Below the pieces are notes generated by a model. It was not told the DNA's origin. It worked only from the letters and a program-made list of their open reading frames with translations, and did not search any database. The translations under genes and the position numbers were made by a program. A stretch of DNA of 64,000 nt from Eurosta solidaginis (taxonomy: Eukaryota; Arthropoda; Insecta; Diptera; Tephritidae), in contig NC_090321.1 of NCBI RefSeq assembly GCF_040869045.1, positions 135,647,689-135,711,688 on the forward strand, given 5' to 3'. Every line of letters begins with the position of its first letter. The stretch's first letter is position 1. This document shows positions 1-64,000 of this stretch, piece after piece.

Positions 1-340
1 ACTTACTATTCCAAAAACAAAATACAATTTTTCAAATTTAGAAAAATTAAAAAATTACAATAATTATCATTAGAAAAAAATTATTGCTCTGGCCTTGAGC
101 TCGATTCGAACCTTGAATGATTTATCAATAGGCCGATAAAAACAAAAACAATTGTTAATAAACCATGAGCACTTGGGAATGTCAAACAAAGTAATTGACA
201 ATAAACAAAAATCCAGCATTATCAGTGATTTGCACCAGATGGCGCAACACTGAATAAATATAGTTGGTAAAAAGGAATAGAAGTAGCAAATTTGCCAGTC
301 AAACAAACCACCGCTGTATAGCTAAATGGTTAGCGCAGCA

Positions 341-410
341 TGCCTAAAGCGTACTGATGATGAAGGATTTAGCACCCTTCGAAATGGATCTATCTGCGCA
401 GCTATTGGCA
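341..410 (+). ncRNA. Hammerhead ribozyme, type I, in satellite monomer 1 (representative of 25)
   Basis: Read 5' to 3': outer stem I strand TGCC (341-344), internal loop, inner stem I strand GCGTA (349-353), core CTGATGA (354-360), one extra T (361), stem II GAAGG/CCTTC (362-366/376-380) with a 9-nt loop, core GAAA (381-384), stem III of four pairs including A384-T393 with a 2-nt loop, then C394 as cleavage nucleotide. Stem I closes with TGCGC (395-399), which pairs with GCGTA through one G-T wobble, and GGCA (407-410), which pairs with TGCC. Predicted cleavage is between 394 and 395. Equivalent cores start at 784, 1213, 2060, 2489, 2919, 3349, 3778, 4625, 5054, 5484, 5918, 6347, 6776, 7206, 7635, 8064, 8482, 8911, 9341, 9770, 10199 and 10627; two others read TTGATGA (1642, 4207). 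The fold is inferred by hand, not tested. Confidence 0.88.
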
Positions 411-1199
411 GGTTGTCTGAAAAATTGTCTACTTACTATTCCAAAAACAAAATACAATTTTTCAAATTTAGAAAAATTAAAAAATAACAATAATTATCAT
501 TAGAAAAAAATTATTGTTCTGGCCTTGAGCTCGATTCGAACCTTGAATGATTTATCAATAGGCCGATAAAAACAAAAACAATTGTTAATAAACCATGAGC
601 ACTTGGGAATGTCAAACAAAGTAATTGACAATAAACAAAAATCCAGCATTATCAGTGATTTGCACCAGATGGCGCAACACTGAATAAATATAGTTGGTAA
701 AAAGGAATAGAAGTAGCAAATTTGCCAGTCAAACAAACCACCGCTGTATAGCTAAATGGTTAGCGCAGCATGCCTTAAGCGTACTGATGATGAAGGATTT
801 AGCACCCTTCGAAATGGATCTATCTGCGCAGCTATGGCAGGTTGTCTGAAAAATTTTCTACTTACTATTCCAAAAACAAAATACAATTTTTCAAATTTAG
901 AAAAATTAAAAAATAACAATAATTATCATTAGAAAAAAATTATTGTTCTGGCCTTGAGCTCGATTCGAACCTTGAATGATTTATCAATAGGCCGATAAAA
1001 ACAAAAACAATTGTTAATAAACCATGAGCACTTGGGAATGTCAAACAAAGTAATTGACAATAAACAAAAATCCAGCATTATCAGTGATTTGCACCAGATG
1101 GCGCAACACTGAATAAATATAGTTGGTAAAAAGGAATAGAAGTAGCAAATTTGCCAGTCAAACAAACCACCGCTGTATAGCTAAATGGTTAGCGCAGCA

Positions 1200-1268
1200 T
1201 GCCTAAAGCGTACTGATGATGAAGGATTTAGCACCCTTCGAAATAGTTCTATCTGCGCAGCTATGGCA
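1200..1268 (+). ncRNA. Hammerhead ribozyme variant with fully Watson-Crick stem III
   Basis: In this monomer the sequence after the core GAA is ATAG, a 2-nt loop TT, then CTAT, so the G-T wobble of the common monomer is replaced by an A-T pair and stem III is perfect. The copy one higher-order unit later (core at 3778) has the same change, and the monomer with its core at 7635 also has ATAG/CTAT but with loop AT. Keeping or improving pairing while the sequence changes supports the predicted stem. Confidence 0.82.
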
Positions 1269-1628
1269 GGTTGTCTGAAAAATTTTCTACTTACTATTCC
1301 AAAAACAAAATACAGTTTTTCAAATTTAGAAAAATTAAAAAATAACAATAATTATCATTAGAAAAAAATTATTGTTCTGGCCTTGAGCTCGATTCGAACC
1401 TTGAATGATTTATCAATAGGCCGATAAAAACAAAAACAATTGTTAATAAACCATGAGCACTTGGTAATGTCAAACAAAGTAATTGACAATAAACAAAAAT
1501 CCAGCATTATCAGTGATTTGCACCAGATGACGCAACACTGAATAAATATAGTTGGTAAAAAGGAATAGAAGTAGCAAATTTGCCAGTCAAACAAACCACC
1601 GCTGTATAGCTAAATGGTTAGCGCAGCA

Positions 1629-1697
1629 TGCCTAAAGCGTATTGATGATGAAGGATTTAGCACCCTTCGAAATGGATCTATCTGCGCAGCTATGGCA
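1629..1697 (+). ncRNA. Hammerhead ribozyme copy with mutated core (TTGATGA), probably inactive
   Basis: The first core residue C3 is T here (TTGATGA at 1642-1648), while stems I, II and III are unchanged. C3 pairs with G8 in the hammerhead active site, so this copy should be strongly impaired. The same change is present at 4207, exactly 2565 bp away, and was therefore duplicated with the higher-order repeat. The corresponding monomer of the third higher-order copy (core at 8064) has the intact CTGATGA. Confidence 0.75.
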
Positions 1698-2475
1698 GGT
1701 TGTCTGAAAAATTTTCTACTTACTATTCCAAAAACAAAATACAATTTTTCAAATTTAGAAAAATTAAAAGATAACAATAATTATCATTAGAAAAAAATTA
1801 TTGTTCTGGCCTTGAGCTCGATTCGAACCTTGAATAGGCCGATAAAAACAAAAACAATTGTTAATAAACCATGAGCACTTGGGAATGTCAAACAAAGTAA
1901 TTGACAATAAACAAAAATCCAGCATTATCAGTGATTTGCACCAGATGGCGCAACACTGAATAAATATAGTTGGTAAAAAGGAATAGAAGTAGCAAATTTG
2001 CCAGTCAAACAAACCACCGCTGTATAGCTAAATGGTTAGCGCAGCATGCCTAAAGCGTACTGATGATGAAGGATTTAGCACCCTTCGAAATGGATCTATC
2101 TGCGCAGCTATGGCAGGTTGTCTGAAAAATTTTCTACTTACTATTCCAAAAACAAAATACAATTTTTCAAATTTAGAAAAATTAAAAAATAACAATAATT
2201 ATCATTAGAAAAAAATTATTGTTCTGGCCTTGAGCTCGATTCGAACCTTGAATGATTTATCAATAGGCCGATAAAAACAAAAACAATTGTTAATAAACCA
2301 TGAGCACTTGGTAATGTCAAACAAAGTAATTGACAATAAACAAAAATCCAGCATTATCAGTGATTTGCACCAGATGGCGTAACACTGAATAAATATAGTT
2401 GGTAAAAAGGAATAGAAGTAGCAAATTTGCCAGTCAAACAAACCACCGCTGTATAGCTAAATGGATAGCGCAGCA

Positions 2476-2545
2476 TGCCTAAAGCGTACTGATGATGAAG
2501 GATTTAGCACCCTTCGAAATGTATCTATCTGCGCAGCTATTGGCA
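2476..2545 (+). ncRNA. Hammerhead ribozyme variant with weakened stem III
   Basis: After GAAA the sequence is TGTATCTATC, so the loop-closing G-C pair of stem III becomes a T/C mismatch, leaving three pairs including the G-T wobble. The core CTGATGA (2489-2495), stem II and stem I are intact. Copies with the same change lie at the cores 5054 and 8911, one and two higher-order units away. Confidence 0.72.
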
Positions 2546-5500
2546 GGTTGTCTGAAAAATTTTCTACTTACTATTCCAAAAACAAAATACAATTTTTCAA
2601 ATTTAGAAAAATTAAAAAATAACAATAATTATCATTAGAAAAAAATTATTGTTCTGGCCTTGAGCTCGATTCGAACCTTGAATGATTTATCAATAGGCCG
2701 ATAAAAACAAAAACAATTGTTAATAAACCATGAGCACTTGGGAATGTCAAACAAAGTAATTGACAATAAACAAAAATCCAGCATTATCAGTGATTTGCAC
2801 CAGATGGCGCAACACTGAATAAATATAGTTGGTAAAAAGGAATAGAAGTAGCAAATTTGCCAGTCAAACAAACCACCGCTGTATAGCTAAATGGTTAGCG
2901 CAGCATGCCTAAAGCGTACTGATGATGAAGGATTTAGCACCCTTCGAAATGGATCTATCTGCGCAGCTATTGGCAGGTTGTCTGAAAAATTGTCTACTTA
3001 CTATTCCAAAAACAAAATACAATTTTTCAAATTTAGAAAAATTAAAAAATAACAATAATTATCATTAGAAAAAAATTATTGTTCTGGCCTTGAGCTCGAT
3101 TCGAACCTTGAATGATTTATCAATAGGCCGATAAAAACAAAAACAATTGTTAATAAACCATGAGCACTTGGGAATGTCAAACAAAGTAATTGACAATAAA
3201 CAAAAATCCAGCATTATCAGTGATTTGCACCAGATGGCGCAACACTGAATAAATATAGTTGGTAAAAAGGAATAGAAGTAGCAAATTTGCCAGTCAAACA
3301 AACCACCGCTGTATAGCTAAATGGTTAGCGCAGCATGCCTTAAGCGTACTGATGATGAAGGATTTAGCACCCTTCGAAATGGATCTATCTGCGCAGCTAT
3401 GGCAGGTTGTCTGAAAAATTTTCTACTTACTATTCCAAAAACAAAATACAATTTTTCAAATTTAGAAAAATTAAAAAATAACAATAATTATCATTAGAAA
3501 AAAATTATTGTTCTGGCCTTGAGCTCGATTCGAACCTTGAATGATTTATCAATAGGCCGATAAAAACAAAAACAATTGTTAATAAACCATGAGCACTTGG
3601 GAATGTCAAACAAAGTAATTGACAATAAACAAAAATCCAGCATTATCAGTGATTTGCACCAGATGGCGCAACACTGAATAAATATAGTTGGTAAAAAGGA
3701 ATAGAAGTAGCAAATTTGCCAGTCAAACAAACCACCGCTGTATAGCTAAATGGTTAGCGCAGCATGCCTAAAGCGTACTGATGATGAAGGATTTAGCACC
3801 CTTCGAAATAGTTCTATCTGCGCAGCTATGGCAGGTTGTCTGAAAAATTTTCTACTTACTATTCCAAAAACAAAATACAGTTTTTCAAATTTAGAAAAAT
3901 TAAAAAATAACAATAATTATCATTAGAAAAAAATTATTGTTCTGGCCTTGAGCTCGATTCGAACCTTGAATGATTTATCAATAGGCCGATAAAAACAAAA
4001 ACAATTGTTAATAAACCATGAGCACTTGGTAATGTCAAACAAAGTAATTGACAATAAACAAAAATCCAGCATTATCAGTGATTTGCACCAGATGACGCAA
4101 CACTGAATAAATATAGTTGGTAAAAAGGAATAGAAGTAGCAAATTTGCCAGTCAAACAAACCACCGCTGTATAGCTAAATGGTTAGCGCAGCATGCCTAA
4201 AGCGTATTGATGATGAAGGATTTAGCACCCTTCGAAATGGATCTATCTGCGCAGCTATGGCAGGTTGTCTGAAAAATTTTCTACTTACTATTCCAAAAAC
4301 AAAATACAATTTTTCAAATTTAGAAAAATTAAAAGATAACAATAATTATCATTAGAAAAAAATTATTGTTCTGGCCTTGAGCTCGATTCGAACCTTGAAT
4401 AGGCCGATAAAAACAAAAACAATTGTTAATAAACCATGAGCACTTGGGAATGTCAAACAAAGTAATTGACAATAAACAAAAATCCAGCATTATCAGTGAT
4501 TTGCACCAGATGGCGCAACACTGAATAAATATAGTTGGTAAAAAGGAATAGAAGTAGCAAATTTGCCAGTCAAACAAACCACCGCTGTATAGCTAAATGG
4601 TTAGCGCAGCATGCCTAAAGCGTACTGATGATGAAGGATTTAGCACCCTTCGAAATGGATCTATCTGCGCAGCTATGGCAGGTTGTCTGAAAAATTTTCT
4701 ACTTACTATTCCAAAAACAAAATACAATTTTTCAAATTTAGAAAAATTAAAAAATAACAATAATTATCATTAGAAAAAAATTATTGTTCTGGCCTTGAGC
4801 TCGATTCGAACCTTGAATGATTTATCAATAGGCCGATAAAAACAAAAACAATTGTTAATAAACCATGAGCACTTGGTAATGTCAAACAAAGTAATGGACA
4901 ATAAACAAAAATCCAGCATTATCAGTGATTTGCACCAGATGGCGTAACACTGAATAAATATAGTTGGTAAAAAGGAATAGAAGTAGCAAATTTGCCAGTC
5001 AAACAAACCACCGCTGTATAGCTAAATGGATAGCGCAGCATGCCTAAAGCGTACTGATGATGAAGGATTTAGCACCCTTCGAAATGTATCTATCTGCGCA
5101 GCTATTGGCAGGTTGTCTGAAAAATTTTCTACTTACTATTCCAAAAACAAAATACAATTTTTCAAATTTAGAAAAATTAAAAAATAACAATAATTATCAT
5201 TAGAAAAAAATTATTGTTCTGGCCTTGAGCTCGATTCGAACCTTGAATGATTTATCAATAGGCCGATAAAAACAAAAACAATTGTTAATAAACCATGAGC
5301 ACTTGGGAATGTCAAACAAAGTAATTGACAATAAACAAAAATCCAGCATTATCAGTGATTTGCACCAGATGGCGCAACACTGAATAAATATAGTTGGTAA
5401 AAAGGAATAGAAGTAGCAAATTTGCCAGTCAAACAAACCACCGCTGTATAGCTAAATGGTTAGCGCAGCATGCCTAAAGCGTACTGATGATGAAGGATTT

Positions 5501-8500
5501 AGCACCCTTCGAAATGGATCTATCTGCGCAGCTATTGGCAGGTTGTCTGAAAAATTGTCTACTTACTATTCCAAAAACAAAATACAATTTTTCAAATTTA
5601 GAAAAATTAAAAAATAACAATAATTATCATTAGAAAAAAATTATTGGTCTGGCCTTGAGCTCGATTCGAACCTTGAATGATTTATCAATAGGCCGATAAA
5701 AACAAAAACAATTGTTAATAAACCATGAGCACTTGGGAATGTCAAACAAAGTAATTGACGATAAACAAAAATCCAGCATTATCAGTGATTTGCACCAGAT
5801 GGCGCAACACTGAATAAATATAGTTGGTAAAAAGGAATAGAAGTAGCAAATTTGCCAGTCAAAAAAAAAAACCACCGCTGTATAGCTAAATGGTTAGCGC
5901 AGCATGCCTAAAGCGTACTGATGATGAAGGATTTAGCACCCTTCGAAATGGATCTATCTGCACAGCTATGGCAGGTTGTCTGAAAAATTTTCTACTTACT
6001 ATTCCAAAAACAAAATACAATTTTTCAAATTTAGAAAAATTAAAAAATAACAATAATTATCATTAGAAAAAAATTATTGTTCTGGCCTTGAGCTCGATTC
6101 GAACCTTGAATGATTTATCAATAGGCCGATAAAAACAAAAACAATTGTTAATAAACCATGAGCAATTGGGAATGTCAAACAAAGTAATTGACGATAAACA
6201 AAAATCCAGCATTATCAGTGATTTGCACCAGATGGCGCAACACTGAATAAATATAGTTGGTAAAAAGGAATAGAAGTAGCAAATTTGCCAGTCAAACAAA
6301 CCACCGCTGTATAGCTAAATGGTTAGCGCAGCATGCCTAAAGCGTACTGATGATGAAGGATTTAGCACCCTTCGAAATGGATCTATCTGCGCAGCTATGG
6401 CAGGTTGTCTGAAAAATTTTCTACTTACTATTCCAAAAACAAAATACAATTTTTCAAATTTAGAAAAATTAAAAAATTACAATAATTATCATTAGAAAAA
6501 AATTATTGCTCTGGCCTTGAGCTCGATTCGAACCTTGAATGATTTATCAATAGGCCGATAAAAACAAAAACAATTGTTAATAAACCATGAGCACTTGGGA
6601 ATGTCAAACAAAGTAATTGACAATAAACAAAAATCCAGCATTATCAGTGATTTGCACCAGATGGCGCAACACTGAATAAATATAGTTGGTAAAAAGGAAT
6701 AGAAGTAGCAAATTTGCCAGTCAAACAAACCACCGCTGTATAACTAAATGGTTAGCGCAGCATGCCTAAAGCGTACTGATGATGAAGGATTTAGCACCCT
6801 TCGAAATGGATCTATCTGCGCAGCTATTGGCAGGTTGTCTGAAAAATTGTCTACTTACTATTCCAAAAACAAAATACAATTTTTCAAATTTAGAAAAATT
6901 AAAAAATAACAATAATTATCATTAGAAAAAAATTATTGTTCTGGCCTTGAGCTCGATTCGAACCTTGAATGATTTATCAATAGGCCGATAAAAACAAAAA
7001 CAATTGTTAATAAACCATGAGCACTTGGGAATGTCAAACAAAGTAATTGACAATAAACAAAAATCCAGCATTATCAGTGATTTGCACCAGATGGCGCAAC
7101 ACTGAATAAATATAGTTGGTAAAAAGGAATAGAAGTAGCAAATTTGCCAGTCAAACAAACCACCGCTGTATAGCTAAATGGTTAGCGCAGCATGCCTTAA
7201 GCGTACTGATGATGAAGGATTTAGCACCCTTCGAAATGGATCTATCTGCGCAGCTATGGCAGGTTGTCTGAAAAATTTTCTACTTACTATTCCAAAAACC
7301 AAATACAATTTTTCAAATTTAGAAAAATTAAAAAATAACAATAATTATCATTAGAAAAAAATTATTGTTCTGGCCTTGAGCTCGATTCGAACCTTGAATG
7401 ATTTATCAATAGGCCGATAAAAACAAAAACAATTGTTAATAAACCATGAGCACTTGGGAATGTCAAACAAAGTAATTGACAATAAACAAAAATCCAGCAT
7501 TATCAGTGATTTGCACCAGATGGCGCAACACTGAATAAATATAGTTGGTAAAAAGGAATAGAAGTAGCAAATTTGCCAGTCAAACAAACCACCGCTGTAT
7601 AGCTAAATGGTTAGCGCAGCATGCCTAAAGCGTACTGATGATGAAGGATTTAGCACCCTTCGAAATAGATCTATCTGCGCAGCTATGGCAGGTTGTCTGA
7701 AAAATTTTCTACTTACTATTCCAAAAACAAAATACAGTTTTTCAAATTTAGAAAAATTAAAAAATAACAATAATTATCATTAGAAAAAAATTATTGTTCT
7801 GGCCTTGAGCTCGATTCGAACCTTGAATGATTTATCAATAGGCCGATAAAAACAAAAACAATTGTTAATAAACCATGAGCACTTGGTAATGTCAAACAAA
7901 GTAATTGACAATAAACAAAAATCCAGCATTATCAGTGATTTGCACCAGATGGCGCAACACTGAATAAATATAGTTGGTAAAAAGGAATAGAAGTAGCAAA
8001 TTTGCCAGTCAAACAAACCACCGCTGTATAGCTAAATGGTTAGCGCAGCATGCCTAAAGCGTACTGATGATGAAGGATTTAGCACCCTTCGAAATGGATC
8101 TATCTGCGCAGCTATGGCAGGTTGTCTGAAAAATTTTCTACTTACTATTCCAAAAACAAAATACAATTTTTCAAATTTAGAAAAATTAAAAGATAACAAT
8201 AATTATCATTAGAAAAAAATTATTGTTCTGGCCTTGAGCTCGATTCGAACCTTGAATAGGCCGATAAAAACAAAAACAATTGTTAATAAACCATGAGCAC
8301 TTGGGAATGTCAAACAAAGTAATTGACAATAAACAAAAATCCAGCATTATCAGTGATTTGCACCAGATGGCGCAACACTGAATAAATATAGTTGGTAAAA
8401 AGGAATAGAAGTAGCAAATTTGCCAGTCAAACAAACCACCGCTGTATAGCTAAATGGTTAGCGCAGCATGCCTAAAGCGTACTGATGATGAAGGATTTAG

Positions 8501-10819
8501 CACCCTTCGAAATGGATCTATCTGCGCAGCTATGGCAGGTTGTCTGAAAAATTTTCTACTTACTATTCCAAAAACAAAATACAATTTTTCAAATTTAGAA
8601 AAATTAAAAAATAACAATAATTATCATTAGAAAAAAATTATTGTTCTGGCCTTGAGCTCGATTCGAACCTTGAATGATTTATCAATAGGCCGATAAAAAC
8701 AAAAACAATTGTTAATAAACCATGAGCACTTGGTAATGTCAAACAAAGTAATTGACAATAAACAAAAATCCAGCATTATCAGTGATTTGCACCAGATGGC
8801 GTAACACTGAATAAATATAGTTGGTAAAAAGGAATAGAAGTAGCAAATTTGCCAGTCAAACAAACCACCGCTGTATAGCTAAATGGTTAGCGCAGCATGC
8901 CTAAAGCGTACTGATGATGAAGGATTTAGCACCCTTCGAAATGTATCTATCTGCGCAGCTATTGGCAGGTTGTCTGAAAAATTTTCTACTTACTATTCCA
9001 AAAACAAAATACAATTTTTCAAATTTAGAAAAATTAAAAAATAACAATAATTATCATTAGAAAAAAATTATTGTTCTGGCCTTGAGCTCGATTCGAACCT
9101 TGAATGATTTATCAATAGGCCGATAAAAACAAAAACAATTGTTAATAAACCATGAGCACTTGGGAATGTCAAACAAAGTAATTGACAATAAACAAAAATC
9201 CAGCATTATCAGTGATTTGCACCAGATGGCGCAACACTGAATAAATATAGTTGGTAAAAAGGAATAGAAGTAGCAAATTTGCCAGTCAAACAAACCACCG
9301 CTGTATAGCTAAATGGTTAGCGCAGCATGCCTAAAGCGTACTGATGATGAAGGATTTAGCACCCTTCGAAATGGATCTATCTGCGCAGCTATGGCAGGTT
9401 GTCTGAAAAATTTTCTACTTACTATTCCAAAAACAAAATACAATTTTTCAAATTTAGAAAAATTAAAAAATAACAATAATTATCATTAGAAAAAAATTAT
9501 TGTTCTGGCATTGAGCTCGATTCGAACTTTGAATGATTTATCAATAGGCCGATTAAAACAAAAACAATTGTTAATAAACCATGAGCACTTGGGAATGTCA
9601 AACAAAGTAATTGACAATAAACAAAAATCCAGCATTATCAGTGATTTGCACCAGATGGCGCAACACTGAATAAATATAGTTGGTAAAAAGGAATAGAAGT
9701 AGCAAATTTGCCAGTCAAACAAACCACCGCTGTATAGCTAAATGGTTAGCGCAGCATGCCTAAAGCGTACTGATGATGAAGGATTTAGCACCCTTCGAAA
9801 TGGATCTATCTGCGCAGCTATGGCAGGTTGTCTGAAAAATTTTCTACTTACTATTCCAAAAACAAAATACAATTTTTCAAATTTAGAAAAATTAAAAAAT
9901 AACAATAATTATAATTAGAAAAAAATTATTGTTCTGGCCTTGAGCTCGATTCGAACCTTGAATGATTTATCAATAGGCCGATAAAAACAAAAACAATTGT
10001 TAATAAACCATGAGCATTAGGGAATGTCAAACAAAGTAATTGACAATAAACAAAAATCCAGCATTATCAGTGATTTGCACCAGATGGCGCAACACTGAAT
10101 AAATATAGTTGGTAAAAAGGAATAGAAGTATCAAATTTCCCAGTCAAACAAACCACCGCTGTATAGCTAAATGGTTAGCGCAGCATGCCTAAAGCGTACT
10201 GATGATGAAGGATTTAGCACCCTTCGAAATGGATCTATCTGCGCAGCTATGGCAGGTTGTCTGAAAAATTTTCTACTTACTATTCCAAAAACAAAATACA
10301 ATTTTTCAAATTTAGAAAAATTAAAAAATAACAATAATTATCATTAGAAAAAATTATTGTTCTGGCCTTGAGCTCGATTCGAACCTTGAATGATTTATCA
10401 ATAGGCCGATAAAAACAAAAACAATTGTTAATAAACCATGAGCACTTGGGAATGTCAAACAAAGTAATTGACAATAAACAAAAATCCAGCATTATCAGTG
10501 ATTTGCACCAGATGGCGCAACACTGAATAAATATAGTTGGTAAAAAGGAATAGAAGTAGCAAATTTGCCCGTCAAACAAACCACCGCTGTATAGCTAAAT
10601 GGTTAGCGCAGCATGCCTAAAGCGTACTGATGATGAAGGATTTAGCACCCTTCGAAATGGATCTATCTGCGCAGCTATGGCAGGTTGTCTGAAAAATTTT
10701 CTACTTACTATTCCAAAAACAAAATACAATTTTTCAAATTTAGAAAAATTAAAAAATAACAATAATTATCATTAGAAAAAATTATTGTTCTGGCCTTGAG
10801 CTCGATTCGAACCTTGAAT

Positions 10820-11665
10820 ATTTTTTATTTGTTTTTTCAAATTTATGTATATATATATTTTCTCAAATTTTAAATTTTTTCCAATTTTTTCTAAAAATTT
10901 TCGGTTTTTTTTTGTAAAAAATTACATAAAATTTATTTATTTATTTTTCCTCAACTAAATGTTCACTTTATTCATGTATTTTTTGCTTTTTTTTTTGATT
11001 TCTCACTAAAAATTTTTCCCACCTTAATGTTTTGTTTTAGTGCACATATGTATGTGTATCAATTTGTTTAATTTTTCGATATTTCTTACTTGGTATGTTT
11101 AATTTCTTTATGTATTCATGTAAGTGCACTGATTTTTTGTTAAACTCTATAAAATTTTTTTTTATTTGCCGTACCGAGCACGTATTACGTTTTGTTTGTT
11201 ATTTATATAAAATAGTTTTTAATTTTTGTATAAAAAATTTGTTTTTTAATTACTTTTACTTTTTTTCGTATTTGTTGTTGGTCGCTGGTGAAACTTTATC
11301 CGGCTCGAAGGACCATGTATAAAAATCACTGCACTAGGCGCTTTATTAAGGAAAGGAGGGCTCACAGGTTTGAGTCCTATGTGTTTTATTTAAAACTTTT
11401 AAATAACAAAATAAAATATTAATTCATTTAAAATATTTCAAACAAAATTAGAAATGCAATAATTGCGCGACGGCGGGCGGGCGTTAATACAAAAATGAAC
11501 CGGGCGATGCTATGCGGGCACGATCGATGGGTGTGGGCGATTCGGTAGATTAGATAAAAATGAAAAATGAGAGTGAGCGCGGCAGCAGACACAGCTGAGC
11601 TGCCATGATGGTGTTTGGCCGCACTGGCCGGGTGTTGCCAGACGGAGGGGCGGACTTAATCCGAA
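10820..11665. other. AT-rich unique-looking DNA, no gene seen
   Basis: This flank of the satellite is rich in T and A runs up to about 11455, then turns GC-rich near 11465-11660. A 75-codon open frame at 11095-11322 on the + strand is Phe/Tyr/Cys-rich, as expected of translated AT-rich DNA, and I do not call it a gene. Confidence 0.6.
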
Positions 11666-11679
11666 AATCGGATCATGTC

Positions 11680-12203
11680 TTCAACACTTTTAAAATACTC
11701 ATTAAAACACCTTTCATTTGATACCCATATCGTACACACAAATTCTAGAGTCACCCGTGGTCCACCTTTATGGCGATATCTCGCAAAGCCGTCCACCTAT
11801 AGAACTATGGTCCACTCCCTTTTAAAATACTCATTAACACCTTTCATTTGATATCCATATCGTACATATAAATTCTATAGTCGCCCACCTATAGAACCTA
11901 TAGAACTAAGGTCCACGCCCTTTTAAAATTCTCATTAACACCTTTCATTTGATACCCATATCATACAAACAAATTCTAGAGTCACCCGTGGTCCACCCTT
12001 ATGGCGATATCTCGAAAAGGCGTCCACCTATAGAACTAAAGCCCGCTCCCTTTTAAAATACTCATTAACACCTTTCATTTGATACCCATATCGTACAAAC
12101 AAATTCTAGAGTCACCCGTGGTCCACCTTTATGGATATCTCGAAAAGGCGTCCACCTATAGAACTAAGGCCCACTCCCTTTTAAAATACTCATTAACACA
12201 TTT
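11680..12203. repeat. Minisatellite of ~115-130-bp units (TTTCATTTGATACCC family)
   Basis: About four imperfect units recur, each containing CTCATTAACACC, TTTCATTTGATACCCATATC, a run around ATTCTAGAGTCACCC, and CGTCCACCTATAGAACTA. The same family returns at 20285-20690 and 63755-64000. BEL-1 is inserted inside this array, since minisatellite sequence flanks both of its LTRs. Confidence 0.85.
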
Positions 12204-12819
12204 TGTTTGAGCGACTGTCGTAGTCACCAACAGCCAACCCTTCTATTTAATAGAAATTAGTCTTAGAAAACTTGAATATTAACATATATTTATTATTGGT
12301 TTGACATTTCATTATTTTATTATACTTTCGAAATATTCTCCATCCCGGTGTGACAATAACTTTGTGAATTTTACCTTTTATAAAAAGTAATAAACCTTTC
12401 GAGAATTTTTACCATCACGCGTGTGACGCCAAATATTATTGTAAAAGCCCTTTTTTATTGAAGAAAGAATTTCTTTAAAGTTTAAACCCTTTTATATTAA
12501 AAGAAAGAAGTTTCGTTAAAGTTGAGAAAACGTGTTTTTTTGTTGTCTATTGGAGATAGACAAATAATAATTATAAATTGGAAATATCCCCATAAAGTGG
12601 AACAAGCTACTAGTGCCTTGAGCACCGCCGTGTCCAGCACAAACACCACCATCATCATCAAAACGCCACCAGATTCAGCCGGTGCCACAATCTACAACCG
12701 CATCATCGCCAACACCAACCACCATCATCAACGCAGCAGCCGCAGCCACAACAGCTACATCCCACAGTAAAAAGGAAGGTAAATTTTAGATTGTGCATTA
12801 ACCACACCCCCCTAGACAG
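12204..12819 (+). repeat. BEL-1 5' LTR
   Basis: It begins TGTTTGAGCG and ends near CTAGACA, matching the 3' copy over nearly its whole length, including a histidine/proline-codon-like stretch rich in CCACCATCATCA. It lacks about 200 bp that the 3' LTR has after CTTGAATATT. The exact 3' boundary is uncertain by a few bases. The next bases, TGGTCCTTCG (12821-12830), are the probable tRNA primer-binding site; BEL-3 has TGGTCCTACG at the same place. Confidence 0.82.
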
Positions 12820-20295: not shown

Positions 20296-20690
20296 CCTTT
20301 CATTTTATACCCATATCGTACAAACAAATTCTAGAGTCATCCACCTATAGAACCTATAGATATAAGATCCACGCCCTTTTAAAATACTCATTAACACCTT
20401 TCATTTGATACCCATATCGTACAAACAAATTCTAGGGTCACCCGTAGTCCACCTTTATGGCGATACCTCGAAAAGGCGTCCACCTATAGAACTAAGGCCC
20501 ACTCCCTTTTAAAATACTCATTAACACCTTTCATTTGACACCCATATCGTACAAACAAATTCTAGAGTCAGCCCTGGTCTACGTTTATGGCATCCCTAAA
20601 TGGCGTCAACCTATAGAACTATGGCCCACTCCATCTTAAAATACTCTTTAATACCTTCCATTTGATACACATGTCATACAAACACATCCC
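20296..20690. repeat. Minisatellite, TTTCATTTGATACCC family
   Basis: Three to four degraded units with ACCTTTCATTTGATACCCAT, ATTCTAG and CACCTATAGAACTA. It continues the array that BEL-1 interrupted at 12203. Confidence 0.82.
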
Positions 20691-26035: not shown

Positions 26036-26890
26036 ATGCAACAACCAGGCACATACGCAACCACTATGGATCGGGTAAGAAAATGGGGCTTGAAATACGA
26101 CGGGGGCAAGGATCCTCTAGGGTTCATAGAACGCGTGGAAGAACTGGCAGAAGGATACGAAATAAACGTCAACTCGTAACCAAGAGCATTGCCGGAGTTA
26201 CTCAAAGACAAAGCGTTGGTTTGGTACCGAAATAACAACCGGAGTTGGAAAGAGTGGGACTCATTCAAGAAAGATTTCCTAAAATTTTTCCTCAGCTCCA
26301 GATATTTTGAACAGTTGGACGACGAGATACGGGCACGCATGCAAAGACCAGGAGAGAAGTTCAAGGATTATGTGCTAGCACTACAAGGGCTGATGCGACA
26401 TGCCGCCTACACCGAAGACAAAAAGCTAAACCGCATATACAGGAACTCCCGCAGAGAAATCCAGCTGTATGTAAAAAGAGGCGAGATCAGCAGCCTGGAG
26501 AAATTGGTAAGTTTGGTAGAGGATTATGAAAATATTACCCCTGACAGAGATCCGATGCGACCAACGGCAAGACCATTTATACCAAGGCGCCCAGAAGAAC
26601 GTTACCAATATATACAGGCAGAGGAGCGGTAACAGCAGACAGAGAAACAACCATCCCAGAAATCAGACCCGGCACCAAGATACATCGATACAAACACGGC
26701 GTGCAGACGATGCGGAGGAGGCGGCCATGTCGCATACGGTTGCCGTAGCGCTCGCATCGAATTCTGCTGGACATGCGGAAAAGTAGGCACACTCACACGA
26801 AATTGTTGTAGACGAACGCAGGGAAACGGCCAGAGACCTCATTGGCACCGAGGAGTGGGGTCTCCCCAAACGCAACCTCGGGAAAACTAA
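26036..26890 (+). pseudogene. Gypsy gag with two in-frame stops
   Basis: From ATG 26036 the frame has TAA at 26177-26179 and TAA at 26630-26632, and ends at 26888-26890. The capsid part (Retrotrans_gag type) has LLKDKALVWYRNN, WDSFKKDFLKFFL and NRIYRNSRREIQLYVKR. Two knuckles follow: CRRCGGGGHVAYGC and CWTCGKVGTLTRNC; the second lacks the His ligand. The frame overlaps pol by about 49 bases, pol being in a different frame, as in other Gypsy elements using frameshifting. Confidence 0.85.
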
Positions 26891-28776
26891 ACACGTTAAG
26901 ACATACAAAGGGCCGGATCTTGGCGAATATTACGGTGAATGGCGAAGAGGTAGTAGCAGCAATCGATACAGGGGCGACGCGAAGCTTTGTGAGTGGAACA
27001 ATGGCAAGAAGGCTGAAGACAGGTATATTCAAGGCGATAGAAACACGAGTGATACTGAGAGATGGCAAACCGAAGACGATCATAGAAGCGGTAGATATTG
27101 AAGTGGGAATGAGTAACCAAGTGCTGCAAAATGAAATGCTAATCCTACCAGGACTAGTCGACGAAGTGGTGCTTGGAACGGATTACCTAGCGAAGGTGAA
27201 CATGGAGATGAGATGTGTAGAACAAACGCTAACCTTGAACACAAACAATCAGGAGGAGGATGCGGTCACTTGTACAACAATGGTCGAAAATAGAAATGAA
27301 AGTAGTCACAAAGATAACAGCCTAAAAGTTGCGAACACAGACGAGTCGGTGAGTAAATTTCTCAACAAAGAATTACAGATGTTCCAGGAAATGTCAGGTG
27401 TATCCAACTTGGCCACGCACAAGATAGTGATGAAAGACGACCGCCCCATAAAACAAAGATATTACCCGAAGAATCCCAAGATGCAAGAGATTATTAATAA
27501 GGAAATCGATGAGCTTATCGAGAAAGGTTGCATCGAACCTTCTAGAAGCCCGCACAGCGCACCAATAGTTTTGGCAAGGAAGAAAAATGGTAAATGGAGA
27601 CTGTGCGTAGATTACCGCCAACTAAACGCAAGGTCAGTACCAGACGCATACCCGTTACCCCGTATCCAACACATCCTGGATAGATTGAGAAGTGCTCGGT
27701 TTATCAGCAGCCTCGATTTAAAAAACGGATATTGGCAAATCCCCATGGAAGAAAACAGCAAACAATACACCGCATTCACTGTACCCGGACGTGGGCTATA
27801 TCAATGGAAAGTAATGCCGTTCGGTCTGCACTCAGCCCCAGCAACTTTCCAGAGGGCACTCGATCACGTTATAGGACCAGAGTTGGAACCTTACGCATTC
27901 GCATATCTAGATGATATCATCATTACGAGCAAAACATTGGAAGAACACATGATACACCTTAAGATAAACTCGGAAAAATGTGAGTTTTTTAAGAAAAGTT
28001 TAAAGTATCTAGGTCATGTCGTTAGCGAGGAAGGCATTCACATGGACCCGGACAAGATAGCAGCCATCAGCGAGTTGACACCGCCAAACAATTTACGCGA
28101 ACTACGGAGATTCCTAGGAGTGGTATCGTGGTACAGGAGATTCGTCTCAGACTTTTCACAAGTTTCACACCCGTTGACGTCAATGCTAAAGAAAGGAAGG
28201 AAGTGGAAGTGGTCGGAAGAGCAGCAGTCGGCATTCGAAGCATTAAAAGCCGCACTCACCCAAGTACCTGTACTAGCTTGTCCAGATTTTTCGAAGAAGT
28301 TTTGCCTACAGACGGATGCAAGCGATTTTGGCCTCGGAGCAGTGCTCACCCAAGGATCAGGCAGAGAAGAACGAGTGATTGCTTATGCGAGTCGCCGACT
28401 TAACAAGGCAGAAACAAATTATTCCCCGACAGAGAAAGAATGTTTGGCAATAGTGTGGGCGATAAGGAAGATGAGACCCTACCTAGAGGGATACACGTTC
28501 ACGGTAATCACAGACCACCTAGCTCTAAAATGGTTAAACGCAATAGACAGTCCGACGGGACGGATTGCTAGATGGGCACTAGAACTACAACAATACTCAT
28601 TCGACGTACAGTACCGGAAAGGAAAGCTAAACGTGGTAGCAGATGCACTTTCGAGACAGCCGATGGACGAGCAACTAACTACGTTGACAGTAGAGCAAGG
28701 CAAACGCGAGTGCAAGTGGCTAAAAGCGAAGATTACAGAGGTAAGAAAGGCTCCGGAGAATTCCCAGACTATGTGA
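26842..28776 (+). CDS. pol: Gypsy pol: protease, reverse transcriptase, RNase H
   Basis: A 644-codon frame. Protease has AAIDTGATRSFVSG at about residue 40. Reverse transcriptase has KKNGKWRLCVDYRQLN, FISSLDLKNGYWQI, MPFGLHSAPATFQR and the catalytic FAYLDDIIITSK. Next comes EEHMIHLKINSEKCEFFK, where about a dozen residues usual in this family are missing. RNase H has LQTDASDFGLGAVL, YSPTEKECLAIVWA and ITDHLALKWL. The frame ends at TVRKAPEN-like sequence; the integrase continues in another frame from about 28750, so a single-base indel near there is likely. It would copy the RNA to DNA. Confidence 0.9.
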   Translation: MAPRSGVSPNATSGKLNTLRHTKGRILANITVNGEEVVAAIDTGATRSFVSGTMARRLKTGIFKAIETRVILRDGKPKTIIEAVDIEVGMSNQVLQNEMLILPGLVDEVVLGTDYLAKVNMEMRCVEQTLTLNTNNQEEDAVTCTTMVENRNESSHKDNSLKVANTDESVSKFLNKELQMFQEMSGVSNLATHKIVMKDDRPIKQRYYPKNPKMQEIINKEIDELIEKGCIEPSRSPHSAPIVLARKKNGKWRLCVDYRQLNARSVPDAYPLPRIQHILDRLRSARFISSLDLKNGYWQIPMEENSKQYTAFTVPGRGLYQWKVMPFGLHSAPATFQRALDHVIGPELEPYAFAYLDDIIITSKTLEEHMIHLKINSEKCEFFKKSLKYLGHVVSEEGIHMDPDKIAAISELTPPNNLRELRRFLGVVSWYRRFVSDFSQVSHPLTSMLKKGRKWKWSEEQQSAFEALKAALTQVPVLACPDFSKKFCLQTDASDFGLGAVLTQGSGREERVIAYASRRLNKAETNYSPTEKECLAIVWAIRKMRPYLEGYTFTVITDHLALKWLNAIDSPTGRIARWALELQQYSFDVQYRKGKLNVVADALSRQPMDEQLTTLTVEQGKRECKWLKAKITEVRKAPENSQTM

Positions 28777-30011
28777 TCGAGGACGTAAAGCTCTACAGGA
28801 GAATAGAGAGTCAAGTTGATGGTGAAGACGCAGTACCCTGGAAGCTATGTGTACCGATCCCACAGAGACGCAGAGTGCTGGCGGAAATTCATGACACACC
28901 AAGCGCAGGACACATGGGCGTTCGAAAATCTATTGCACGAGCGACGACACGATATTACTGGCCCGGAATGTTCAGAGACGTAAGGAAGTACGTACAACAA
29001 TGTCATGGATGTCAGGTATACAAACCTAGTCAACAACAGGCCGCGGGTAAGATGTTAACTAAAATTCCAGAAGAACCGTGGGCAACAGTGTGTGCAGACT
29101 TTGTTGGTCCAATGCCACGCTCAAAACATGGTAATACAATGGCATTAGTTTTCGTTGACAGATTTTCAAAATGGGTGGAGATAATGGCAATTAGAAAGGC
29201 AACAACAGAAAGCGTAGTACGAGGATTTAGAGAGAGAATTTTGGCACGATTTGGCATTCCAAAGGTATTAATCACAGACAACGGAGCGCAGTTCGTGAGC
29301 AAACGTTTTGAGAAGTATTTGGAGGAGCTTGGCGTAAAACACCAGCTGACAGCACCATACACACCGCAGGAGAATCCGACAGAAAGAGCGAACCGCAACA
29401 TCAAGAGGATGATAGCACAGTTTTCAGGGAATGAGCAGAGAACATGGGACGAGCTGATACCAGAGATAACACTCGCATTAAACACAAGCGTATGCGAATC
29501 GACAGGGTACAGTCCAGCGTATGTAGTACAAGGCAGAGAACCAAGGATTCCCAATAGCCTTTACGACGAGCATACATACGGTACAGATGAGAGAGTAGCT
29601 AATCCAGCCGAGAAATCAATGAAGATGAAGGAGATATTCGAGATGGTACGACGGAAGCAAGAGCGAGCATCAGCAGAGCAAGCAAAGCATTATAATTTAA
29701 GAAGAAGGCAATGGCGACCGGCTATAGGCGACCTAGTGCTGGTAAAGGAGCATCAGCTGTCAAAAGCGGTGGATAACTTTGCAGCCAAACTAGCGCCCAG
29801 GTACAGTGGACCCCACCGGGTAACGAACTTTGTATCACCAGTGATCGTAGAGCTAGACAAAGTTTTCAGAGGAATGTGGAGGACAGCCCACTTAAGTGAG
29901 CTGAAAGCATACCACGCAACAGACGCCTCCGACAATAATGAATCCATAAAGCAAAGGAATGAACAGGGTAACAAGAAGAACGCTAGTGAAGATCAAATCC
30001 CGTCAACATAG
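28750..30011 (+). CDS. int: Gypsy integrase (frameshifted from pol)
   Basis: The open frame extends further 5' but homology begins near 28750 with GEFPDYVIEDVKLYRR. The HHCC finger is HDTPSAGHMGVRKS plus CHGCQVYK. The core triad is visible: CADFVGPMPRS (Asp), LITDNGAQFVSK (Asp) and PQENPTERANRNIKR (Glu). The C-terminal domain has GDLVLVKEHQLS and RYSGPHRV. No stop interrupts it until 30009-30011. It would integrate the element with a 4-bp stagger, consistent with the TTGC duplication seen. Confidence 0.9.
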
Positions 30012-34543: not shown

Positions 34544-35110
34544 TCAATTTTCTGTGTCCGTTTTGTAGTTGAGTCTCTTGCTTCGTGGTGTATTTTCTAT
34601 ATGTAGCAATTCTAACGTAAACCTTTTGCTATAATTTGTCTCCTGCGCTAGTATGCTCACCGCTTTAAAATCTGGTTGGTGTCCGTTCTCTAAACAGTGG
34701 GCCGCAAGTGCTGTTTTATGAATGCTGCAGGATGATCTACATTTAATATCAGATCTGTGTCCTGCTGTTCTTGTTTTTAATTTGTTCTTTGTTGTACCCA
34801 CATATTCTTTTCCACATTTATTATTTTCATTTCTCGCACATGTACTCTTATATATTACATTATGTTTGTCTGAATTTGTTAGATTGCTTTTCATGTTATT
34901 AAAAAATATGTTTGTTGTGCACGATGGTTTGTGTGCAATTCTTATATTCTCCTTGTCATAGATGTCTGAGCCCTGCAATCTTTCTGAAAAACCTGGCATA
35001 TATACTACAGATCTATATTTTGTAGTCTTGTTCTCTCTGTTCTTCCGGCATTTATATTTCGGGTATTCCTTGATTAACCTCTGTATTGCGTTAGGAGGGA
35101 AGTCATTCAT
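34544..35110 (-). pseudogene. Penelope GIY-YIG endonuclease domain
   Basis: A 188-codon frame. Residues ~80-130 give YKSTCARNENNKCGKEYVG, TTKNKLKTRTAGHRSDIK and HKTALAAHCLENGHQPDFKA, corresponding to the GIY-YIG nuclease with its Cys pair, Arg and His-rich strand. The preceding part has PGFSERLQGSDIYDKEN. In intact elements this domain is fused behind the RT; here a frame break at about 35110-35340 separates them. It nicks target DNA. Confidence 0.88.
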
Positions 35111-38554: not shown

Positions 38555-39462
38555 CTAGTTGCTATCGGCGTTATATAGCGAACCAATGGCTTTGAAAATG
38601 TGATGAATGAGCTCACCCATTTTATTATATTTGCGCAGAAAGGGGAACTCGGCAATATAGCCCTCAAAGTGTTCCTCCACTCTTCGGTAGCGCGGAACTT
38701 TCGACCGGAACTCTCGCCAATTTCGCTCATTTTTTTGCGTATGAGCTCCGGACGTGGGGTCTACAAAGTTCTCGCTATGGTTCACATTAGCGTGAATGTA
38801 GCCATGTTCCTCCAAGCGATCGTACGCCCTCCAGCAATCAGTATAGATGGTAGTACCTGGCGCGATTTTTTGCTTAATAACATCGAGCAAAGTCTCCCTC
38901 GAATGATCAGGTACCGGTACTACAAACATCTTTTTCGAGTCGCGCTCGATTCCCCCGAAACCCCATTGCCCCTCAATAACCCTTCCGCGATTATATTTCC
39001 GGCGTCCCATCTTCGCCTCATCTACCTCGAATATCTTACCCTCGCCACCGAGCACTGAATCGCTTTTGCTAATGGCCCAGTTCATCAACACCTCCCGAGT
39101 AAAACCGTATGACGCGCGATCTCAATAGTCTCTTCCAAGAACTGGGTTTTAGGGTAAGGCATGGTTATAAAATATACCACAAAGCGGCAGATTTGGTCCA
39201 CACTCAGATGGGAGCCGGAAAAGAACGTATTCGTATAAATACTCTGCTTAAACGAACACTTCATTTTAAGTTTTTTCTTATTTTTCACTACAGTGTTCAC
39301 TTTACGGCACATAAAATCCTTACCCGACAAAACGCATTGATTATTGCACGTGGAGCACAGTCTCACCGCACTTAAGACACCGTGATTAATAAGAAAACTT
39401 TTTAGTTCTTCCGCGTTCATTCGTAAAAAATTACATACAGTTTGGCTACAATTGTCGCACAT
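38555..39462 (-). pseudogene. Merlin-type transposase (ISXO2-like DDE), one frameshift
   Basis: On the minus strand an N-terminal frame (39462-39085) has a zinc-ribbon-like CSTCNNQCVLSGKDFMC and the helix region HLSVDQICRFVVYF. After a probable single-base shift near 39100, the frame to 38555 has NWAISKSD, IFEVDEAKMGRRKYNRG (first Asp), TTIYTDCWRAYDRL (second Asp) and GAHTQKNERNWREFRSK (third acid/Asn region). About 300 residues in total is normal length for this family. It would cut and paste a Merlin DNA transposon. Clear terminal inverted repeats and an 8-9-bp target duplication were not found. Confidence 0.9.
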
Positions 39463-41939: not shown

Positions 41940-42870
41940 TTTATACTAGCAGACCCGTCAGACGGTGTTCTTCCCTTAATTTGGTCTATCTGTATACATT
42001 TTAATAAGCTTTTTCCGTCTAGCCCTGCCCTTCCCCCCTCTTCACTTTTTCTCATTCCTTTTATTCTCTCCTCCCTCCGTCTTTTTCGCTTCATCTATCT
42101 CTATCTTCGTCTCTTTCTATCTCTTTGTATGTCTCCTTCCCTCTTTTCTCTTCTCTGAAGTTTTCCCATTCTTCTTCATCCCTTATTGCCAATCCCAGAG
42201 GGTGGTATGTATTTTGTTCCAGTCCCATTCCGAGTCCCAGTACCACTCCGAGTCTCAGTCCTAGCCCTGGTCTTAATCCCAGTCCCTGCCGTCTCTGGTC
42301 TACTTCCTTCCCGGAAAAAAAGGATCGTAAATACTAATATAGGCAAATTTATATACAAAATTTCAGGCAAATCGAATAGGACGTATGTAAATAAGTATGT
42401 GGGTATTATTAATTCTTGTGTTTATTTCGGCTTCGCATGCATATTTATCAGTTTTGCCAGGTTGATGCGACTAAATCGAATATCACAATGAAAATTACTT
42501 TAAAGTTCTCAGCAACAGCTTTCATTTGATATCCATATTACAGACACATTCTAGGGGTATCCGGGTCCAGGTTTTGGCCTATATCTCGAGACCCTAGTCA
42601 CCCAGGGGTATAAAGATTACTCTGTACTAAAGCACACATCAACAGCTTCAATTTGATACCCATAATGTAAAACCACATCCTAGTGTTACTCTGGTCCACG
42701 CTTTGGCCTATGTTTCGAGACCATAGTCACCAATAGGTATGAAAACTTCCCTGTACTAAAGCTCTCATCAACAGCTTTTAATTGTATCCATATTCTATAA
42801 ACACATTCTAGGAGCACCCGCGTTCACGTTTTGGCCTATATCTCGAGACCCTTGTCACCCAGGCTCCTTA
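41940..42870 (+). repeat. Dispersed repeat with CT-rich core and CACGTTTTGGCC minisatellite
   Basis: Starts at CTAGCAGACCCGTCAGACGG, has a pyrimidine-rich core with CCAGTCCC-type units (~42220-42295), then about three ~120-bp units with TTTCATTTGATATCC, ACGTTTTGGCCTATATCTCG and GAGACC(C)TAGTCACC. Related, reverse-orientation copies lie at 50230-50740 and 53400-53880. A 5'-truncated LINE interrupts it at about 42870, and its units resume at 46480. The class is not clear to me. Confidence 0.78.
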
Positions 42871-46479: not shown

Positions 46480-47040
46480 CTGATCCACGTTTTGGCCTAT
46501 ATCTCGAGACCCTAGTGACAAATACATAGGTATGAAAATTATCATGTACTAAAGCACTCATCAACAACTTTCATTTGTTATTCGTGTTGTATTACCTCTT
46601 TCTAGGGGTACCAGGGTCCACGTTTTGGCCTCAATCTCGAGACCCTAGTCACCAATAGGTATGAAAACTACCCTGTACTAAAGCACTCATCAACAGCTTT
46701 CATTTGTTATCCATACTCTATAAACACATTCTAGGGTACCCGCGTCCACGTTTTGGCCTATATCTCGAGACCCTAGTCACCCACGGGTACGAAAAATACC
46801 CCGTATCAAAGTACTCATAAACAGCTTCCATTTGATACCCATATTGGACAAACATATCGCAGCATTATCCAAGTCCACGTTTTGATCTCAAGACTCTAGC
46901 CAGAACGGGATAAAAAGTATCCTATGTCTGTCTCCTGGTTCGAAGCTACCCCTCCACTAATTTTCAGCCAAATCTGTTCATCCGTTCTTGAGTTACAAAT
47001 AGTGTAACTAACACCACTTTCTTTTATATATATACATCAC
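46480..47040 (+). repeat. Minisatellite and end of the dispersed repeat
   Basis: Four units with ACGTTTTGGCCTATATCTCG and TCATCAACAGCTTTCATTTG, then the conserved end phrases GGGATAAAAAGTATCC, TTTTCAGCCAAATCTGTTCA and AACTAACACCACTTTC. A second copy of the whole stretch is at 51190-51740. Confidence 0.85.
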
Positions 47041-51166: not shown

Positions 51167-51830
51167 TGCTACAACAACGACAACAACAACAGCCTGATCC
51201 ACGTTTTGTCCTATATCTCGAGACCCTATTGACAAATACTTAGGTATGAAAATTATCATGTACTAAAGCACTCATCAACAACTTTCTTTTGTTATTCGTG
51301 TTGTATTACCTCTTTCTAGGGGTACCAGGGTCCACGTTTTGGCCTTAATCTCGAGACCCTAGTCACCAATAGGTATGAAAACTACCCTGTACTAAAGCAC
51401 TCATCAACAGCTTTCATTTGTTATCCATACTCTATAAACACATTCTAGGGGTACCCGCGTCCACGTTTTGGCCTATATCTCGAGACCTTAGTCACCCACG
51501 GGTACGAAAAATACCCCGTATCAAAGTACTCATAAACAGCTTCCATTTGATACCCATATTGGACACACATATCGCAGGATTACCCAAGTCCACGTTTTGA
51601 TCTCAAGACTCTAGCCAGAACGGGATAAAAAGTATCCTGTGTCTGTCTCCTGGTTCGAAGCTACCCCTCCACTAATTTTCAGCCAAATCTGTTCATCCGT
51701 TCTTGAGTTACAAATAGTGTAACTAACACCACTTTCTTTTATATATATACATCACATTAGAAACTTCAAAAATAACAGCATTTCTCCACTATTTAATGGA
51801 TGTTATTATACATATGTATAAACCTTCCTC
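51167..51830 (+). repeat. Minisatellite and dispersed-repeat end, second copy
   Basis: Duplicate of 46453-47100, beginning with the A-rich LINE tail ACAACAACGACAACAACAAC and ending past CACCACTTTCTTTTATATAT. Confidence 0.88.
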
Positions 51831-63689: not shown

Positions 63690-64000
63690 GGTACCGGACA
63701 GATGATGTTCTGCGTCACCGTGGTCCACATTTTGGTCGATATCTAGAAAACTCCTTCACACATACAACTACCACCACTCCCTTTTAAAACCCTCATTAAT
63801 ACCTTTCATTTGATACCCATATCGTACAAACAAATTCTAGAGTCACCCCTGGTCCACCTTTATGGCGATATCTCGAAAAGGCGTCCACCCATAGAACTAA
63901 GGTCCGCTCCCTTTTAAAATACTCATTAACACTTTTAATTTGATACCCATATCCTACAAACAAATTCTAGAGTCACCCCTGGTCCACCTTTATGGCGATA
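63690..64000. repeat. Minisatellite, TTTCATTTGATACCC family
   Basis: Two units plus flank, with TCATTTGATACCCATATCGT, GAGTCACCCCTGGTCCACC and GCGATATCTCGAAAAGGCGT, running off the right edge of the window. Confidence 0.85.

Follow-up and report, generated by a model that had tools for sequence, protein, structure and literature searches.

A tephritid fly satellite with a variant-core type I hammerhead motif in its monomers

Hammerhead satellites and the Eurosta solidaginis array

Tandem monomers of a few hundred base pairs (bp), each with one type I hammerhead and a weak helix III, have been described from newts and the axolotl as satellites or retrozymes of ~330-350 bp, the newt motifs acting as dimers and one of the axolotl families showing a palindromic tetraloop (PMC7229834, PMC6155905). 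The tephritid fly Eurosta solidaginis has an array sharing these general features, which lies in a stretch of 64,000 nucleotides (nt) of contig NC_090321.1 (assembly GCF_040869045.1, forward strand, positions 135,647,689 to 135,711,688); this whole stretch is hereafter the window, and coordinates in the fly refer to it. The fly version is distinguished from the amphibian ones by its host, a monomer of 429 bp, an extra U after A9 of the catalytic core, and three nominal bp in helix III. We regard the array as a real hammerhead satellite of the known newt-like tandem type I kind, with an unusual core. A comparison with the newt satellite had been drawn in an earlier reading made from the letters alone (hereafter the sequence-only reading); it holds, and is sharpened by the weak helix III hairpin with its palindromic tetraloop. 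The explanation that we favor, and hold to be highly probable, is that each ~429-bp monomer encodes a type I hammerhead with one additional U between A9 and helix II, which more likely than not would act as a dimer and whose product units may be circularised.

Other described repeats share fewer aspects with the fly array. The Sm-alpha elements of Schistosoma are likewise type I hammerhead repeats and include a tRNA-derived part (PMC4918200, PMC2770079), whereas the fly monomer has only a D-arm/A-box-like piece on the plus strand and a B-box-like one on the other strand, yields no tRNA with ARAGORN, and has the extra U. In the cave cricket Dolichopoda, the monomers of the pDo500 satellite form a hammerhead-like structure whose region, as in the fly, is not specially conserved (PMC2808323); that satellite belongs to a different insect order, and we liken the two by description and not by sequence. 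Type I repeats in insects are also mentioned in general terms in the axolotl work (PMC7229834). Atypical hammerheads of dipterans and hepatitis delta virus-like agents were similarly reported from fly genomes, but those are type III motifs whose helices I and II are long (PMC7936874), in contrast to the type I motif of the fly satellite. The five main satellites described for the tephritid Bactrocera tryoni are of 154-182 bp and were excluded as counterparts by size (PMC4367827). The titles and abstract openings of the papers listed from the open-access literature (for satellite DNA and Bactrocera, the best 20 of 2,548), a body that leaves subscription journals mostly uncovered and novelty thus unproven, point to neither a fly hammerhead satellite nor a hammerhead subclass with an extra U.

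Tandem Repeats Finder recovers a single tandem array of period 429 (25.3 copies, 98% matches), with the following extent:

1-10823, plus strand: satellite array, 25 complete monomers followed by 121 bp of a further one, partly arranged in a higher-order repeat of six monomers (Tandem Repeats Finder, monomer alignment)
10703-10823, plus strand: last, partial monomer of 121 bp, where the array stops just past the B-box-like element and ahead of the hammerhead part

With ACTTACTATTCC as the reading start, the 25 complete monomers are each 418-433 bp long, and the spacing between consecutive predicted cleavage sites is 418-434 nt. The sequence-only reading had proposed a ~429-bp satellite of 25 monomers and an RNA unit of ~430 nt: array, period and number of complete copies stand, its end moves to 10823, and the unit is corrected to the range just given. 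On the right, the array breaks off 121 bp into a monomer and gives way to AT-rich DNA; on the left, it is already running at position 1, and its end lies beyond the window. Monomers that are six apart differ at a median of 4 positions and neighbors at a median of 6, and several sets are identical (e.g., monomers 2, 8, and 17, or 5, 11, and 20). Hence, the array has a six-monomer higher-order repeat, which shows recent amplification at the DNA level.

The hammerhead motif and its extra U

The elements of the motif, given for monomer 1 and recurring in the other 24, are as follows:

341-410, plus strand: whole hammerhead, including an outer helix Ib (UGCC 341-344 with GGCA 407-410)
349-353, plus strand: 5' strand of stem I, GCGUA, pairing with UGCGC at 395-399 (descriptor, covariance model R1)
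354-360, plus strand: catalytic box CUGAUGA (C3 to A9), UUGAUGA in two of the 25
361, plus strand: extra U, unpaired, which separates A9 from helix II in all 25 monomers
362-380, plus strand: stem-loop II, GAAGG-AUUUAGCAC-CCUUC (GAAGG 362-366 with CCUUC 376-380) with a 9-nt loop, invariant in all 25
381-384, plus strand: GAAA box (sequence)
384-393, plus strand: stem-loop III, AUG-GAUC-UAU, 3 bp (384-386 with 391-393) including one G.U (sequence, folding energies)
392-395, plus strand: AUC^U, predicted to be cut after C17 (position 394; descriptor, sequence)
370-373, plus strand: UAGC of loop II, complementary to GCUA 401-404 in the internal loop of stem I, a possible pseudoknot

Every one of the 25 monomers has YTGATGA followed by GAAA on the plus strand, together with the A15.1-U16.1 pair and the AUC triplet. 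The first position of the box is changed in the two monomers with TTGATGA (cores at 1642 and 4207), both of which retain G8, and CUGAUGA is found in the other 23. In monomer 14 (core at 5918), the 3' strand of stem I reads UGCAC, which breaks one C-G pair. This leaves 22 monomers in which the core, GAAA, AUC, stem I, and helix II are all intact. The sequence-only reading had the plus-strand order of these elements, the GAAA and AUC, and the two TTGATGA variants right throughout the array, and its cleavage position, after 394, is the C17 position that we predict for monomer 1. Its statement that all three helices can be drawn in all 25 copies applies to 24, monomer 14 being the exception, and its assumption of the usual spacing fails on account of the extra U. 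A descriptor without an insertion accepts none of the monomers, whereas one allowing a single inserted nucleotide accepts all except monomer 14 (stem I of at least 5, stem II of at least 4, and stem III of at least 3 bp), in the type I layout with stem I open and stems II and III capped by loops.

A loose pattern of the core alone matches 52 times in the window against 6.9 expected, with 50 of the matches inside the array. Once the stems are required, 200 simulated 64-kb sequences yield no hit on the one strand scanned, and of 20,000 simulated monomers a single one passes the loosest setting of the descriptor; at the level of the descriptor, a chance origin of the motif is excluded. Neither the descriptor, which needs 2 bp in helix III and is for that reason blind to minimal Penelope-type motifs, nor the model R1 described below finds a hammerhead on the minus strand or outside the array in the window.

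In the predicted folds, stem-loop II forms with a pair probability of 0.94-0.98, and stem I with 0.55-0.88 in windows of up to one monomer. A symmetric register of helix II, with U10.1 opposite C11.1, was rejected, being ~6 kcal/mol worse (-5.1 against -11.4 kcal/mol). The loop II tetranucleotide UAGC could form 4 bp with GCUA in the internal loop of stem I, or loop II 5 bp with CUAAA, both of a size that chance could produce.

A precedent for the additional nucleotide comes from the plus-strand hammerhead of chrysanthemum chlorotic mottle viroid (CChMVd), in which a single unpaired nucleotide likewise separates A9 from helix II (PMC3705267), albeit an A instead of a U and in a viroid instead of a genomic satellite. 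When this extra A, which precedes G10.1, was changed to U (A10->U), trans-cleavage was reported to rise 3-4-fold, while C or G at this place was strongly detrimental (PMC3705267). Going by that mutagenesis, the extra U of the fly stands at the position concerned as the base that performed best in the viroid. In their survey, Perreault et al. (2011) excluded hits with mispairs adjoining the core from the final alignments; the core insertions named in the text are those after A6, after A13, and near C3 in saltern variants, an insertion after A9 is not apparent among them, and three earlier viroid variants are cited there without description (PMC3088659). Given the insertion after A9, with tolerated precedents in the viroid and in the viral contigs considered next, we term the fly motif a variant-core hammerhead.

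Extra-U hammerheads in viral contigs and a structural model trained on them

Two viral contigs of IMG/VR (L001 and L002) match the fly core and helix II and contain a full hammerhead with the extra U, with other stems. A wider pattern (CTGATGA, T, GGG...CCC, GAAA) gives at least 120 matches in IMG/VR contigs (L008-L127), of which at least 100 have stems I and III (at least 101 at slightly different limits). These matches include near-identical contigs; a coarse filter on loops and flanks leaves 54 distinct motifs among those with both stems, a count that also took in matches of a GAAGG pattern, and the less biased figure for the stems is 100 of 120 among the matches listed. The same pattern with an inserted A gives 16 matches, 3 of them complete, and with an inserted C two, neither complete. 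The viral order of U, A, and C is the same as the order in the viroid mutagenesis. The extra-U hammerheads of these contigs have the core of the fly motif, the U after A9 and mostly the type I layout; they differ from it in occurring once or twice per contig examined rather than in arrays, in their stable helix III, and in mostly having GUC at the cleavage site. The likeness between fly and virus is one of structure, and nothing points to a shared ancestry.

Rfam is silent on the fly motif. At the gathering threshold, no Rfam 15 family matches anywhere in the window; up to an expectation value (E) of 10, the array (scanned within 11.5 kb) has no match, and a 106-nt scan gives five weak matches to unrelated families, none of them a hammerhead. 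The Rfam search that the sequence-only reading had put forward as a check is thus negative at either level. Rfam also reports no such motif in the two extra-U viral loci among seven loci scanned, nor in 11 further contigs drawn from the 120 or more matches; its one hit among the seven is a ribosomal leader in L004, and its one hammerhead among the 11 is a separate type III motif in L008. Because viral hammerheads with the extra U go unreported too, the U is the likely cause of the miss in the fly, and we give little weight to the Rfam negative.

In place of Rfam, the type I reading of the motif is well supported by a covariance model, R1, built from 36 viral extra-U hammerheads with a three-helix structure and no fly sequence. 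Run over both strands of the window at E up to 10, R1 returns exactly 25 matches, which are the 25 monomers, at 27.3-36.1 bits (E of 8.5e-10 to 9.9e-7), the three lowest scores belonging to the two C3U monomers and the one with the stem I mismatch. Five bacterial or archaeal sequences (L003-L007) that have the fly core and helix II, but in which stems I and III are not seen by eye, served as decoys: four score 11.5-16.2 bits and L004 has no match at E up to 10. We rejected these five as hammerheads on both counts. Among the matches with an inserted A or C, those in which an open stem I and a stem III are not both complete reach at most 16.9 bits. A sequence-only model from the same alignment (R2) finds none of the fly motifs, which is a weak control, as R2 has an effective sequence number of 36 against 9 for R1 and a different search mode. 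The alignment holds 36 of 42 candidate rows, six with long stem III regions having been removed. Its pairs hold in 94.4% of cells, and its covariation score is 0.808 against 0.170 when shuffled, the value for stems I and III being inflated by the choice of rows with at least 5 bp in stem I and at least 4 bp in stem III.

The viral motifs listed fall into two visible groups, one with a short helix II and small loop, and the other with a long helix II and a likely pseudoknot between loop II and the 3' flank of stem I. Where helix II has at least 5 bp, loop II pairs with that flank in 17 of 26 motifs (shuffled mean 4.3, maximum 10); where it is shorter, in two of 28, which equals chance (mean 2.0). 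Loop pseudoknots are reported to matter in the motif mutated by Perreault et al. (PMC3088659). A fly pseudoknot at the same place is possible, the 4 bp that would form it being weak.

Some further observations concern the viral contigs themselves. Both L001 and L002 have a pair of extra-U motifs ~0.8 kb apart with similar flanks (L001, 8548-8603 and 9355-9411, minus strand; L002, 10243-10298 and 9436-9492, plus strand), the second of each having been found with R1. One of the L001 motifs lies just after an open reading frame (ORF; 8605-9501, minus strand) without a PHROG match and the other inside it. The two contigs examined have phage-type genes, four of seven ORFs matching PHROGs (DnaB-like helicase, primase/helicase, DNA polymerase, and methyltransferase). 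Two stretches compared with named phage records gave no relatives. Two contigs with an extra A (L131 and L137) have a hammerhead-like motif with both stems complete, scoring 29.7 bits with R1.

Taken more broadly, we tentatively propose, with slightly more doubt than confidence, that extra-U hammerheads are a widespread natural subclass lying outside curated models and published filters, which would have arisen separately in bacterial viruses and in the fly satellite with U, as suggested by the viroid mutagenesis, as the sole fitting base, and which in the fly would drive a newt-like dimeric processing into ~429-nt circles. The array adds a tephritid fly to the newt, fluke, and cave-cricket hammerhead satellites; more important than the new host is its core variant, which went unreported by the Rfam models at every locus scanned. 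If extra-U hammerheads cut, ribozyme counts for flies and viral genomes are probably too low, and a simple base rule may apply at this position: U fits, A sometimes, and C not. The strong genetics of flies would also make the role of a self-cutting satellite RNA testable.

Helix III, transcription, rival explanations, and the rest of the window

The satellite RNA is, judging from its sequence, very likely able to cut itself. We propose that plus-strand RNA would be cut after AUC, giving units with a 5' end at UGCGCAGCU, and that two motifs would associate by pairing of their helices III, the mode known from newt satellite RNA; the cut units might then be ligated to form circles, which has been demonstrated for other type I hammerhead repeats of animals. 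The commonest helix III segment, AUGGAUCUAU, present in 19 of the 25 monomers, is self-complementary over 10 nt with two G.U pairs, and has a computed energy of +3.5 kcal/mol as a hairpin against -9.2 kcal/mol as a duplex. One further monomer has AUAGAUCUAU, a perfect palindrome, and over these 20 fully self-complementary cases the hairpin ranges from +3.2 to +3.5 and the duplex from -9.2 to -9.8 kcal/mol. Axolotl motifs with a weak helix III are reported to cleave better as dimers than as monomers, whose cleavage is poor, and a palindromic tetraloop occurs in one of the two families (PMC7229834). As the fly helix III is very weak yet palindromic, the active form is more likely dimeric than monomeric, and by analogy with the axolotl, we predict that a transcript of a single monomer would cut poorly and that of a dimer well. 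Against dimers stand the remaining five monomers, whose helix III duplexes keep eight of the 10 pairs, at 0.0 kcal/mol for UGUAUC (three monomers) and -4.4 kcal/mol for UAGUUC (two). Moreover, helices III of 2 bp with a tetraloop are likened to invertebrate motifs (PMC7229834), and efficient cutting in the monomeric state is said to be the rule for type I motifs of invertebrates (PMC7761336). The alternative to dimeric action would be monomeric cleavage, the mode of other invertebrate motifs whose helix III has 2 bp.

Two elements of the monomer might bear on transcription:

319-334, plus strand: tRNA-like D-arm hairpin (GCUA-AAUGGU-UAGC) shortly ahead of the hammerhead, with the A-box-like TAGCTAAATGG; 24 of the 25 monomers share the A-box string
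102-112, minus strand: B-box-like GGTTCGAATCG; core string in 24 of 25 monomers

We take the former to be A-box-like and the latter B-box-like by their consensuses; ARAGORN finds no tRNA. A start by RNA polymerase III within the monomer is possible, but early termination would tend to follow, as two plus-strand T runs in monomer 2, one of 5 at position 28 and one of 4 at position 424, could stop this polymerase. Transcription by read-through, proposed for retrozymes in a review (PMC7761336), would fit multi-unit RNA better than an internal start.

Several further observations weigh against an active hammerhead. Beyond the silence of Rfam in the window, array, and 106-nt scans alike, stem I has a pair probability of only 0.38-0.48 when a two-monomer window is folded (monomer 2), helix III pair probabilities are at most 0.006, and nearest-neighbor folding of the local segment places an alternative pairing of the core, at -16.6 kcal/mol, 5.2 kcal/mol below the hammerhead, at -11.4 kcal/mol. 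Moreover, the motif is no more conserved than its surroundings: it takes up 6 of the 29 substitution columns against 4.7 expected, so these columns carry no sign of selection on it, and covariation within the array was not seen. This lack of excess conservation, together with the DNA-level amplification visible in the higher-order repeat, C3U in two of the 25 monomers and the broken stem I pair in one, is what a decayed fossil would look like, i.e., a once-active hammerhead whose copies are now untranscribed or inactive and spread by unequal crossing-over only. We think such decay rather unlikely in view of the 22 monomers in which all the parts are intact, though recent homogenisation could give the same result without selection; it also partly overlaps with the explanation that we favor, as motifs encoded in an array that is not transcribed could nonetheless be active. 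That the motif is not a ribozyme at all, but a chance or a tRNA- or short interspersed element-derived hairpin mimicking a hammerhead, would agree with the Rfam result and with the D-arm-like hairpin and CTTCGAAAT, a string that we presume, on a loose resemblance, to be B-box-like, both of which could derive from a tRNA repeat. The virtual lack of descriptor hits in simulated sequence and the match of R1, an independent structural model, against the low scores of the decoys make this highly improbable.

The encoded hammerhead that we prefer is compatible with the array being the insertion product of an animal retrozyme of the type without long terminal repeats (LTRs), whose circular RNA would be the spreading form. 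Animal type I hammerheads are described from tandemly repeated units that measure 150-450 bp and have a GC below 50% (PMC7229834), and the fly satellite has a repeat length in that range, a GC of 33% in monomer 2, the tandem layout, and a type I hammerhead; the D-arm-like hairpin with its A-box-like string just upstream also finds a parallel in the tRNA reported in schistosome hammerhead repeats (PMC4918200). However, the other 53 kb of the window hold no dispersed copy, the remaining matches to the satellite being just 13-39 nt long, and a target-site duplication is unreadable with the left end beyond the window. We consider a retrozyme origin conceivable, while leaning slightly against it.

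Elsewhere in the window, 14000-61544 is dense in remains of retroelements, including BEL/Pao pieces. An ORF at 34544-35110 on the minus strand is 67% identical to a Eurosta solidaginis protein and has no Pfam match; by eye, we presume it to be the end of a Penelope-like element. Minimal hammerheads are frequent in Penelope-like elements; the descriptor, which would miss motifs without a helix III, detects none in the vicinity of this ORF. The ten best matches of a BEL/Pao-type ORF (59136-60941) are all from Rhagoletis, Ceratitis, or Anastrepha, the best being a Rhagoletis pomonella protein at 79%. Short arrays of ~130-bp repeats (CATTTGATACCCATAT type), in at least two related forms, are scattered through the window. 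The coordinates of these and of other elements are:

26842-30011: gypsy-type pol
38555-39091: ISXO2-like transposase
43882-45750: reverse transcriptase like that of long interspersed elements (LINE-like)
11795-12210, 20351-20684, and 63714-64000: ~130-bp repeat arrays (Tandem Repeats Finder)
42513-42863, 46484-46854, and 51198-51558: further ~130-bp repeat arrays (Tandem Repeats Finder)

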